From Arenicella chitinivorans (lineage in GTDB: Bacteria > Pseudomonadota > Gammaproteobacteria > Arenicellales > Arenicellaceae), in the NCBI RefSeq assembly GCF_014651515.1, contig NZ_BMXA01000006.1, positions 1-64,000 of the forward strand: a stretch of DNA of 64,000 nt, given 5' to 3'. Numbering within the stretch: position 1 is the first letter of the stretch; the number at the start of each line of letters is the position of its first letter. Shown here in pieces: positions 13,033 to 16,684 of the stretch. The notes beneath the pieces are model-generated. The model was not told the origin of the DNA and did not search any database. It worked only from the letters and a program-made list of their open reading frames with translations. The position numbers and the translations under genes were made by a program.

Positions 13033-13479
13033 ATGTTCAAAACTTGCTTGTCACTATTCGCCCTCGCCGTCCTCGTCGCCTGCTCATCTGAACCTGCCGA
13101 CGCCCCAGAAACACAAGTCCGCAAGACATTAACCCTGATTGAGGAAGCCGCCGAACAACGCTCATTAAGCGGAATTATGGCGCACATCAGCGACGACTAC
13201 GCCGACCACCAGGGCTACGACAGCAAGCAGATTGCACGACTTGCTCAATTGCAGATCATGCGCAATCAAAAAATCAACATTTTCACGTTGATTCGTTCGA
13301 TTGACATCGAGAATAACGTCGCCAGTGTCGAGCTATCCGCCGCGATGGCTTCACGTGACACCGACTTGTCTTTGGAGTCCAATCGTCTAAAAGCCGATGC
13401 CGTGAAGTTCTCCGTCTTGCTCAAGCGTGAAGACCGTGACTGGAAGGTACACAGCGTGGCTTGGAAACAAGGTTGGTAA
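13033..13479 (+). CDS. Small lipoprotein with NTF2-like fold (predicted)
   Basis: This 148-residue protein has a lipoprotein signal with lipobox LVAC (Cys17), so it should be acylated and sorted to the outer membrane (Ser at +2). The mature part is about 130 residues, with an alpha-helical start ([25 protein letters not shown]) and a strand-rich end closing with [13 protein letters not shown], a pattern typical of SnoaL/NTF2-like or DUF4440-type domains. Its function is unknown. A GGAG ribosome-binding site precedes the ATG. It is divergent from acpH. Confidence 0.8.
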
Positions 13480-13627: not shown

Positions 13628-14656
13628 ATGTCACATATAAACACAAGCAATACATCTCGTCCTGCGACGAACTCGCACCCGATAACTGTCTGTGCGCTGT
13701 ACAAATTTGTGCAGCTTGATGATTATCAAAACCTGCAACCAAATTATCTAGCGAAGCTGAATCAGCTCAGTATTCGAGGCACTTTACTGTTGGCAACCGA
13801 AGGTATTAACGGCACGATTGCCGGTTCTGACGCCGCCATTACAGAGTTCATTGAATGGATGCAGTTAGACAGCAGAATGGCGGACCTGGATTACAAACTA
13901 TCGTATCATCAAACACCGCCCTTCCACCGCACGAAAGTTAAATTGAAACGTGAAATCGTTACCATGGGTGTGGACGGTATTGACCCCAACCGTGTCGTTG
14001 GTACTTACGTCGATGCGCAGGAGTGGAACGCACTTCTGGACGATCCAGAGGTCGTCCTGATCGACACGCGCAATGAGTATGAATACGAAATCGGCACATT
14101 TGAGAACGCCATCAATCCACACACAGATACATTTCGCGAGTTTCCGTCCTATGTTGCCGAAAACTTGGACCCGCAAAAGCATAAGAAAGTGGCGATGTTC
14201 TGCACCGGTGGCATTCGTTGCGAGAAAGCGTCGGCGTTTATGAAAGAACAAGGGTTCGAGGAGGTCTTTCATCTCAAAGGCGGTGTTCTTAAATACCTTG
14301 AAACGGTGGAACAAGAACGCAGCAAATGGCATGGAGAGTGCTTTGTGTTCGACGATCGCGTTGCGGTGAACCATGACTTAGAGAAAGGTCAGTATGACCA
14401 ATGCCATGCCTGCCGTTTTCCGATCACCGAACAAGACAAACTGTCTGAGCATTATCGTCCGGGCGTAAGTTGTCCGCGCTGCCATGATGCGCTAACTGAA
14501 GAACAAAAAGCACGTTTTTCTGAGCGCGAGAAACAAGTTCAATTATCGAAAGATCGCGGCGAAAGCCATATTGGCTCCGACAGCCAAAAAGCAGCTGAAC
14601 GAAATCGCCAACTCAAACAGCAGGAAAAACAGGCACAGCGCAGTGTATCAGCATAG
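13628..14656 (+). CDS. trhO: tRNA uridine(34) hydroxylase TrhO (rhodanese family)
   Basis: This 342-residue protein matches TrhO/YceA, which makes 5-hydroxyuridine at tRNA position 34. It has an N-terminal acylphosphatase-like domain ([18 protein letters not shown]), a central rhodanese domain with the active cysteine in [13 protein letters not shown], the typical [12 protein letters not shown] segment, and a C-terminal cysteine region (CHACRFPIT and CPRCHD) that may bind metal. Length fits the family (about 350). It is followed by two secreted paralogues on the same strand. Confidence 0.92.
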
Positions 14657-14680
14657 TGATTTAATCAACGAGGGGTAGTT

Positions 14681-15280
14681 ATGAGAATTAAACCAACACC
14701 AGATCGCAAACAAATCGGTATTACCGTCGTGGCGCTGATAGGCAGCGTGTTCATCGGCATGAAAGCGTATGCCGCGGCAGTCGAAAGTATGTCACTTGAA
14801 AAATTCATCGAAGCGGAACAATCATATTGGCACGTCAGCGTTAAATGTGAAAATGTGGAACAACCGCGCTCGATGCAAAAGCCGATCACAGGTGATAATT
14901 GGTGTGCCAGCGACGCGCCAACAGTGTGCAATGAGAACAAATTCACTGCCTCGCGTATGGTCTGCGCGGACAATTTTGCGCAGAAAGTGTCGGATGACGA
15001 ATCCGCACCTATTGTCACCGACCCGGTGCCGAAATCAGCCGCATCAGCTGCGCCAGACACCACGAAAGCGGAAACAAACTCTAAACCTGTTGCTGCACCG
15101 AGTCCACAACCTGCGACAACAGCACCTGCATCAATCGAAGCAAAAAAACTGTCCGAGACAGACTTATTAAAAGAGCAAAACCAAATCGAGTCGCAACGCA
15201 TCTTGATTCAACAGAAACGACTGGAACTTCAGCGCCGTGAACTTGAGCTCAAAAAAGCTCAGATGGACGGCCAGCAATAA
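14681..15280 (+). CDS. Secreted four-cysteine coiled-coil protein, paralogue A
   Basis: Not recognised as a named family. The 199-residue product has an N-terminal hydrophobic segment (residues 12-33, ending KAYAA) that is a probable Sec signal peptide or anchor. A compact domain follows (about 40-100) with Cys56, Cys75, Cys83 and Cys95, then a Pro/Ala/Ser/Thr-rich linker (105-150), then a charged helix (150-199; LSETDLLKEQNQIESQ) with coiled-coil heptads. The cysteines could form two disulfides in the periplasm. The gene 67 bp downstream encodes a paralogue with almost identical cysteine spacing (19, 8, 12 here). The start lies 24 bp after trhO with GGGG upstream. Confidence 0.75.
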   Translation: MRIKPTPDRKQIGITVVALIGSVFIGMKAYAAAVESMSLEKFIEAEQSYWHVSVKCENVEQPRSMQKPITGDNWCASDAPTVCNENKFTASRMVCADNFAQKVSDDESAPIVTDPVPKSAASAAPDTTKAETNSKPVAAPSPQPATTAPASIEAKKLSETDLLKEQNQIESQRILIQQKRLELQRRELELKKAQMDGQQ

Positions 15281-15346
15281 CATTTATTTTAATCAGAGCG
15301 GCATAGTATTCCGCTCGAACATGACGACTAAGTACTGAGACAAATT

Positions 15347-15952
15347 ATGAGTAGCAAATCTAAATTGGGTTATAAAATGGGTAATGTAATTGGCTACGCC
15401 GCGCTGGTCGGCAGCATTGTATTCACTGCCACCGCAAGCGCACAGGTGAAAACTAAAACAGCGGAAGAGTTCGCACAATACGGCCCAGAAGACGCCTATT
15501 GGGTCTTCACTGTCACGTGCGAAGATGATTCAGAACACAAGGTACAGCGCAAGACCGACGGCGATTTGTGGTGCGCCAAGGAGATCGAAGGGTTTTGTGA
15601 TGCAAACCGCGATATTGCCGCAGATAAAGTCTGCGGTGACGCTTTCGGCGAAGCCTACGCGGAACAAAAAAATACCATTGACGCGGAACAAGCTGCGCGC
15701 AAACAGGCGGAAGCCGAGTCAGAACGCAAGCGCTCAGAAGCGGCTGCAGCAAAACAACGCGAAGAACAAGCCAAGCAACAGGCTGCGCAGCGCGCGCAAG
15801 CCGAAGCCGATGCGAAGGTGCAACGCCAGCTGTCTATTGAAGAAGAGCTGTTAAAAATCGAACAAGAGAAATTGGACCTACGCCGCCAGGAACTGGAGTT
15901 ACAGGAGCGCGCAGTACAGATCCAGGAGCTGCTGGACCAAGAACAAGGATAA
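15347..15952 (+). CDS. Secreted four-cysteine coiled-coil protein, paralogue B
   Basis: This 201-residue protein has a Sec signal peptide (cleavage probably after TASA, residue 32), a small domain with Cys58, Cys76, Cys84 and Cys96 (spacing 18, 8, 12), and a long charged helix from about residue 105 to the end, rich in Glu, Gln, Arg and Ala (SIEEELLKIEQEKLDLRRQE), a strong coiled-coil. The shared pattern with paralogue A is YW...VxC...DxWCA...CxxN...VCxDxF, then a coiled-coil with LxLQxRELEL-like heptads. The helix here is longer and replaces the Pro-rich linker of A. Function unknown. A periplasmic or envelope-bound oligomer is a reasonable guess. Confidence 0.78.
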   Translation: MSSKSKLGYKMGNVIGYAALVGSIVFTATASAQVKTKTAEEFAQYGPEDAYWVFTVTCEDDSEHKVQRKTDGDLWCAKEIEGFCDANRDIAADKVCGDAFGEAYAEQKNTIDAEQAARKQAEAESERKRSEAAAAKQREEQAKQQAAQRAQAEADAKVQRQLSIEEELLKIEQEKLDLRRQELELQERAVQIQELLDQEQG

Positions 15953-16051: not shown

Positions 16052-16684
16052 CTAGCTATCCGAAAACGCCGCCAGACGCCCGGTCAAAAAGGCTTTGGAC
16101 TGTGGCCATTCAGAATCGATCATCGAGAAACAATGCGTGTGGCGAATCGTGCCATTCGGCATGATTTTATGGTTGCGAATAATACCGTCAAATTTGGCAC
16201 CCAAGCGCTGGATCGCTTTCTGAGAACGCACATTGTCGTGGTGTGTGTGCCAGTGCACAGCGATACAACCCATTGTTTCAAACGCATGCTGTAACAGCAA
16301 CAGCTTACACTCGGTGTTCACGCCAGTGCGATGAACCGACGCCGAATACCAGGTAAACCCAATCGACAAATTACGATCTTGCTCGCTGAGATAATAGTAT
16401 CGAGTACTACCGACCACGCGGTTGTCTGACAATCGTCGTACCACAAACGGGTGTTCAATCCCCGCGTCGCGGTTGCACAAGGCATTTTTCACCATCGCTG
16501 GCATTTGGTCCGGTGTGGGCACTCCGGTATAGTGTAGATTCCATAATTCGCCGTCGGCCGCCGCAGCAGTTAGGTCAGCCACATGGTCTGAGCTGAGCGG
16601 TTCAAGCTGCACGTGATGTCCGATCAGGGCCAGGTCGCTGGCCAGTCCAGCACGGAATTTAGATACGTTAGATAAATCAGTCAT
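16052..16684 (-). CDS. GNAT family N-acetyltransferase (RimJ/RimL-like)
   Basis: This 210-residue protein has the RimJ/RimL-type GNAT organisation. It starts with a strand containing HVQLEPLSSDHVADL, has GSTRYYYLS and IGFTWYSASVHRTGVN (acetyl-CoA pyrophosphate-loop region, variant of the usual R/QxxGxG/A), and ends with the W(H)THHDNVRSQKAIQRLGA segment that is nearly diagnostic for this subgroup. It would move an acetyl group from acetyl-CoA to an amine, perhaps a protein N-terminus. The substrate is not known. Its start overlaps the fabY stop by 8 bp, which points to translational coupling. Confidence 0.85.
   Translation of the reverse strand: MTDLSNVSKFRAGLASDLALIGHHVQLEPLSSDHVADLTAAAADGELWNLHYTGVPTPDQMPAMVKNALCNRDAGIEHPFVVRRLSDNRVVGSTRYYYLSEQDRNLSIGFTWYSASVHRTGVNTECKLLLLQHAFETMGCIAVHWHTHHDNVRSQKAIQRLGAKFDGIIRNHKIMPNGTIRHTHCFSMIDSEWPQSKAFLTGRLAAFSDS

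Follow-up and report, generated by a model that had tools for sequence, protein, structure and literature searches.

A family of exported-type four-cysteine proteins with an unusual heptad tail in Arenicella

Genes A and B, which lie side by side in Arenicella chitinivorans, encode exported-type proteins built of a four-cysteine head, a linker and a C-terminal tail. They belong to a family that is undescribed, as judged from library searches and from literature titles and abstract openings. The family is new; its parts are of familiar kinds, and its tail is unusual. The head-linker-tail architecture was seen in one genus only among the genomes searched.

The stretch analyzed, called the window here, comprises 64,000 nucleotides (positions 1 to 64,000 of contig NZ_BMXA01000006.1). 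The coordinates and cysteine spacings of the initial annotation, made from the sequence, are exact, and both ORFs with four cysteines each are where it had placed them. The locus has the following features:

13628..14656, + strand: UPF0176/rhodanese (TrhO-type) gene, upstream neighbour of A and B (Pfam)
14681..15280, + strand: gene A, exported-type four-cysteine protein with a Pro/Ala-rich linker (ORF, 199 aa)
14681..14773, + strand: signal-peptide-like N-terminus of A, approximately residues 1-31 (by eye: basic n-region, hydrophobic stretch, AYA-A)
14780..14980, + strand: four-cysteine head of A, approximately residues 34-100 (alignment and own-genome profile match)
14981..15154, + strand: linker of A, Pro/Ala/Thr-rich, fast evolving (composition, regional dN)
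15155..15277, + strand: C-terminal tail of A, 3 consecutive heptads hydrophobic-x-hydrophobic-xxxx (sequence repeat)
15347..15952, + strand: gene B, exported-type four-cysteine protein with a charged linker, predicted helical (ORF, 201 aa)
15347..15442, + strand: signal-peptide-like N-terminus of B, approximately residues 1-32, ASA-Q (by eye)
15446..15637, + strand: four-cysteine head of B, residues 34-97, five predicted strands and a short helix (AlphaFold2 models)
15638..15826, + strand: linker of B, predicted charged single helix (AlphaFold2 model)
15827..15946, + strand: C-terminal tail of B, 5 consecutive heptads hydrophobic-x-hydrophobic-xxxx (sequence repeat)
16052-16684, opposite (-) strand: GNAT gene, downstream of B (Pfam)

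A and B follow each other head to tail with an intergenic gap of 66 bases. The upstream UPF0176/rhodanese gene is presumably trhO, and its product is taken to be a cytoplasmic-type enzyme. An opposite-strand ORF (14665-15201), whose sole Pfam match is weak (E 0.015, under the cut-off), was taken as a shadow. Window positions 13033-13479 carry a lipoprotein-like small gene that matches SnoaL_3 weakly (E 0.04, under the cut-off) and recurs in 7 of 9 longer relative loci; at 1596-1647 a 20-base unit is repeated about twice. No Rfam or tRNA matches were obtained in the window, and the promoter and terminator scan gave values close to those of shuffled sequence.

The head is defined by four cysteines, C56, C75, C83 and C95 in A (spacings 19-8-12) and C58, C76, C84 and C96 in B (18-8-12); the second follows a Trp in each protein, giving the WC motif. 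In all, 104 residues follow the fourth cysteine in A and 105 in B. Signal-peptide-like starts, read by eye, agree with the exported type assigned initially; residues 1-30 of B have low confidence in the AlphaFold2 model. The shared WC core and the differing linkers described earlier are both present: the linker of A is Ala/Pro-rich (residues 103-156 include 12 Ala and 9 Pro), and that of B has an Ala/Gln/Glu/Lys/Arg composition. A is retrieved by the B query with 29% identity (E 5.5e-17), a match that takes in the low-complexity helix. In the own genome the core profile, in which A and B are themselves included, matches A at 14783-15004 (E 3.1e-27) and the B head (E 3.6e-26).

A total of 51 distinct members from the genus were collected from the fetched loci with a filter comprising WC, four cysteines in broad spacings (C2-C3 5-11, C3-C4 10-14) and a hydrophobic start; since W before the second cysteine was required, its conservation is by construction. 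The filter missed at least the A gene of genome G008 (locus L012, a 4-heptad run) and L184, in which the contig end cuts the gene. The spacings are 18-20/8/12 in 48 of the 51 members and 21/8/12, 19/7/12 and 17/8/12 in the remaining three; thus, C3-C4 is 12 in all 51, and C2-C3 is 8 in 50. Linkers vary in length and kind among these members. In one of them (L175:3822-4460) the linker is made of four KPNAVAK-type heptapeptide units in a row, an instance of free linker evolution. Two disulfides in the A and B heads are plausible, given the exported type, the four invariant cysteines and the DsbA-family genes, which account for four matches above the cut-off in the own genome.

The initial annotation had proposed a new protein family, which it did not recognise, with a real function. 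The core profile indeed finds homologues with the cysteines kept outside this genome, and no described domain was matched by A or B in Pfam, NCBIfam, PHROGs or PDB sequences; neither a described-domain match to both cores nor a lack of cysteine-conserved homologues elsewhere was seen. The observation of A and B as exported-type four-cysteine relatives is confirmed, and the interpretation attached to it is borne out in part.

Searches of A and B against Pfam, NCBIfam and PHROGs returned only weak matches, none above the Pfam/NCBIfam cut-off. For B they were led by Gti1_Pac2 (E 0.0037, 17.9 bits, cut-off 23.6) and phrog_6216 (E 0.0041), and for A by phrog_15587 (E 0.0047). A TolA/TonB-like identity of B was rejected, tolA_full giving 12.6 bits against a cut-off of 59.45, via the charged helix. 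Matches of relatives to PF15369 (L003, E 0.0012, 19 bits, cut-off 27) and TiaS_TCKD (L098, E 0.0043, under the cut-off) were judged to be chance, as was Peptidase_C71 in L096 (E 9.5e-5), the only match of a scanned relative above any cut-off, with 22.7 bits where 22 is required, a margin of 0.7 bit. PF25139 LysM14_C, the C-terminal domain of a fungal LysM effector, matches residues 37-81 of L087 (E 0.0042; 18.1 bits, cut-off 27). L087 belongs to a set of four standalone relatives scanned and is the only one matched there; the domain does not match A or B. In the PDB, no sequence match was obtained for B, the joint core profile or the tail profile, and none of the listed titles and abstract openings of papers on Arenicella genomes and periplasmic four-cysteine proteins deals with the family.

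The structure of B was predicted with AlphaFold2 as a single chain from 17 sequences. In the model, 161 of 201 residues have a pLDDT of at least 90, with a pTM of 0.48. The head is predicted to contain strands 34-37, 41-46, 49-58, 63-69 and 75-77 and a helix at 88-95, and the linker and tail to form one helix, 98-200, with block mean pLDDT values of 93-97 for residues 101-180. According to these models, the head of B would be a compact alpha+beta domain, followed by one long helix. The head was modelled and searched alone (mean pLDDT 86.6, pTM 0.70), since the full-length fold search ranked helix-only matches first. Foldseek, run against the PDB and against viral models, returned nothing with an E value of 0.001 or lower. 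The best VIA-align match of the head was PDB 1ylx_A (Z 4.8, 66 residues, 2.8 A), a Bacillus stearothermophilus protein of unknown function without a sequence match, whose Z lies within the range of common arrangements for this tool. Many entries among the best rows were of MelC1, the Streptomyces tyrosinase caddie protein, likewise a small alpha+beta domain (PDB 1wx4 and relatives; Z 3.9, 55 residues, 2.5 A, 13% identity). MelC1 has an adjacent tyrosinase (melC2), whereas the scanned neighbours of A and B are the UPF0176/rhodanese and GNAT genes, with no tyrosinase. LptDE 9i94_B was matched with Z 3.9 and an rmsd of 7.1. The resemblances to 1ylx, MelC1 and LptDE 9i94_B are too weak to claim in these predicted models and may reflect a common arrangement.

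The core profile found the family in 15 of 18 genus genomes, with 1-6 copies each. It is thus not needed throughout the genus, since three genomes, two of them 98-99% complete, are without it. The own genome has A and B plus two single genes, at C2:280782 and C1:969631, which makes four copies in all; its weak matches besides these have E values of 0.13 and above. Downstream of the C2 member a strongly repetitive stretch (L004:2510-3134) with short-period repeats in several frames was observed. A search with the B alignment gave nine named records, six titled Arenicella and three Gammaproteobacteria bacterium, whose B proteins are each identical to that of one of nine genus genomes in the sample; the genus is on this basis taken to be Arenicella. 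The one match among 91 other genomes of the order (E 0.007, two stops) was judged to be chance. In 369 genomes sampled from the class, ten matches were obtained at E 0.01: three of the genus, one in genome G390 and six judged to be chance; with the joint head profile, three genus genomes matched in this sample, together with G390 and with G221, where the place had been read as chance. Among 398 genomes sampled from the phylum, the matches were the own genome and a single one judged to be chance. Weak profile matches in G103, G141, G221, G258, G333, G339, G365 and G623 were judged to be chance when their places were read, since other genes occupy part of the same sequence, stops interrupt them or the set of cysteines is incomplete. 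The B helix (residues 106-192) gave weak matches in G030 and G056 (E 0.007 and 0.009).

The protein of G390 is 90 residues long, of exported type, and carries the same four cysteines. In the other gammaproteobacterial family to which G390 belongs (f44), such a standalone head occurs in 15 of 42 genomes, as counted with a profile that includes f44 members, in up to five copies; of 20 fetched 3-kb loci, partly overlapping, 9 contain at least two adjacent copies. Profile-profile comparison (hhalign) of the genus and f44 heads gave a probability of 94.8 and E 5.5e-8 over 52 columns, and 51 cores, genus and f44 heads together, were placed in a joint alignment. Like the genus heads, those of f44 have four cysteines, a W directly preceding the second (WC) and an AA..C-type stretch leading up to the fourth; unlike them, their C2-C3 and C3-C4 spacings are more variable, and unlike A and B, the f44 proteins end soon after the fourth cysteine, without a linker or helical tail. 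The core tree separates f44 from the genus members fully (100/100). Judged from sequence, A and B share a head domain with the f44 proteins and are a separate architecture; the family first perceived in the tandem pair stands, and its scope was drawn too narrowly, the head being found also alone in f44. No standalone relatives were found in plasmids and viral contigs, and no single conserved partner gene near the f44 heads among ten neighbourhoods read. In five of these ten (L126, L128, L129, L131 and L136) the standalone four-cysteine gene is divergent from a DUF58-like gene, which from reading the sequences we take to encode the DUF58-type protein of a transglutaminase operon.

The tail carries at least 3 consecutive heptads hydrophobic-x-hydrophobic-xxxx (i, i+2) in 42 of the 51 members, in runs of three to five. 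When the tails were shuffled 500 times, runs of three or more heptads arose in 0.26 members on average and in 3 at most. Spacings 3 and 4 gave such a run in 1 of 51 members each, and spacing 5, the complement of 2, in 39. The tail of B reads in register LSI EEEL LKI EQEK LDL RRQE LEL QERA VQI. In nine members the run is below 3, and two of these (L004 and L162) end 23 residues after the head. Among the first-collected members, 23 of 29 have a run of at least three heptads; L004, L014 A and L034 were dropped before the register analysis, and 23 of the 26 tails left were set in register. In these, positions other than 1 and 3, which are hydrophobic by construction, are hydrophobic in 1-26%. Arg, Lys, Glu and Gln are abundant in the tails, and leucines recur at regular intervals. 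A tail profile built from 16 of the 26, all with a run, gave 40 matches in 61 genomes at E 1e-4, all in 14 genus genomes. Every match falls within a core-bearing gene or immediately next to one, and two are decayed A remnants (G003 and G012); no tail apart from the family was found in this search.

Residues two apart in a helix point approximately 200 degrees from each other. Hydrophobic residues at i and i+2 would thus form two seams on opposite faces of the helix. Canonical coiled-coil proteins likewise have a long charged helix and a seven-residue repeat, but with the a/d spacing of 3/4, whereas the spacing in the family tails is 2 and 5. The C-terminal coiled coils of the initial annotation are accordingly retained as a helix, predicted for B, and given up as a canonical a/d repeat. 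A literature search on helices with two hydrophobic faces gave no papers, and none of the titles and abstract openings listed for bifaceted coiled-coil heptads relates to this family; one of those papers (PMC6662064) treats designed peptides.

Comparison with one relative (L035; B 88% and A 76% identical) gave dN/dS of 0.10 for A and 0.03 for B, rough values because dS is 1.4-2.0, near saturation. These ratios point to purifying selection on both genes. Regional dN in A is 0.35 for the linker, 0.055 for the core and 0.01 for the tail; across both proteins the tails are at 0.01 and the cores at 0.055-0.065, so that in this relative the tail is conserved at least as much as the head. In the alignment of B with 10 orthologues, about half of the 28 invariant columns lie in the C-terminal tail.

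The reading tentatively favoured is that A and B are periplasmic head-linker-helix proteins whose tails assemble and whose disulfide-locked heads are presented to an envelope ligand. The exported protein would work in the periplasm, where the four cysteines would form two disulfides locking the head. The tails could associate through their two opposite hydrophobic seams into a multi-helix, sheet- or ring-like assembly and not an ordinary two-stranded coiled coil. The linker would serve as a spacer, so that the assembly could present several heads to the ligand, and A may co-assemble with B where it is present. What counts against such assembly is that one hydrophobic residue per heptad per seam is a weak zipper and that nine of the 51 members have runs shorter than three heptads.

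The history of the locus bears on an alternative that builds on the partner pair of the initial annotation, in which A and B would be an obligate heteromer paired by canonical coiled coils. The adjacency of the genes in the same order, and tails that hardly change between two relatives, are in its favour. So is the core tree, in which A and B copies are mostly grouped by type and not by genome (weak A-group support, 83/64), so that the duplication looks old in the genus, older than most sampled species. In this tree of few columns neither A nor B is a strict clade, and the tandem pairs of G001 and G009 are placed elsewhere. The trhO-type gene precedes B in all 11 B loci (approximately 3 kb) and in all 9 longer loci of the same genomes, whereas A is full length in seven of the 11 (G000, G002, G005, G006, G007, G008 and G017), cut before the tail in G012, left as a tail remnant in G003 and absent from G013 and G014. 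Its absence or decay in four loci that keep B argues against obligate pairing and fits B working without A; moreover, the tails lack a/d spacing, and two of the four own-genome members are single genes elsewhere. The obligate heteromer is therefore considered quite improbable. From the sequences compared, B is the kept member of the trhO locus and A a paralogue that can be lost; in G003, G013 and G014, which carry other family members elsewhere, these could stand in for A.

Other genomic contexts speak to a different alternative, namely that the function resides in the head, which as a small disulfide-rich domain would bind or inhibit a protein of the envelope or of foreign origin, the tail doing no more than anchor it to another envelope component, e.g., an outer-membrane receptor. 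Lysozyme inhibitors are similar in size to the four-cysteine head. The head stands alone in the 90-residue exported-type f44 proteins, linkers vary freely, and in all five loci of one subtype a TonB-dependent-receptor-like gene immediately precedes the family member (L123:6304-9037, L137:5176-8073, L162, L181 and L185, in G000, G006, G007, G010 and G017). Four of these five members are without the tail repeat (run below 3), and L181 (G017) has it; L183 (G003) also adjoins a receptor-like gene (22% identity). A functional link of this subtype to the receptor-like gene is possible. The adjacency is limited to the one subtype, grouped after the adjacency was seen, with the receptor label given from reading the sequence; neither Foldseek nor VIA-align matched the structure convincingly to any known inhibitor, and a tail conserved at least as much as the head is not needed for a mere anchor. 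This alternative is a possibility of some weight, though rather doubtful. Binding of a metal ion by the four cysteines, which would make the proteins periplasmic metal carriers or sensors, is very unlikely: it is consistent with the invariance of the cysteines and with the weak fold likeness to MelC1 (Z 3.9), which has a role in copper delivery, but exported proteins enter an oxidising compartment, DsbA-family genes are present, and the MelC1 likeness is no stronger than the noise that common arrangements produce. The tail could also be an amphipathic helix lying on the membrane or peptidoglycan without self-assembly, as its Arg/Lys/Glu/Gln-rich composition with regularly spaced leucines and the isolated helix of the single-chain B model would allow; by helix geometry, seams about 200 degrees apart do not give the single broad hydrophobic face that is usual in membrane-lying helices, and this is held to be unlikely.

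Another subtype, with a PVYS.KNLG or similar start, adjoins in three genus genomes (L165, L167 and L174) a gene that from reading is presumably ferrochelatase-like.

The favoured reading of head presentation by assembled tails has a bolder extension, which should be treated as unlikely: the tails would be a new two-seamed helix assembly (sheet, ring or filament) in the envelope, in which paralogues mix via a common heptad code, each adding a disulfide-locked head. For the family itself, the searched libraries contain no model of the head domain, which occurs in two gammaproteobacterial lineages; the two-module exported architecture belongs, among the genomes searched, to one genus with up to six copies per genome. 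If the tails do not assemble, the family still represents an annotation gap; if they do, the tail would be a naturally occurring helix with two seams, of a kind that the textbook coiled coils do not cover.
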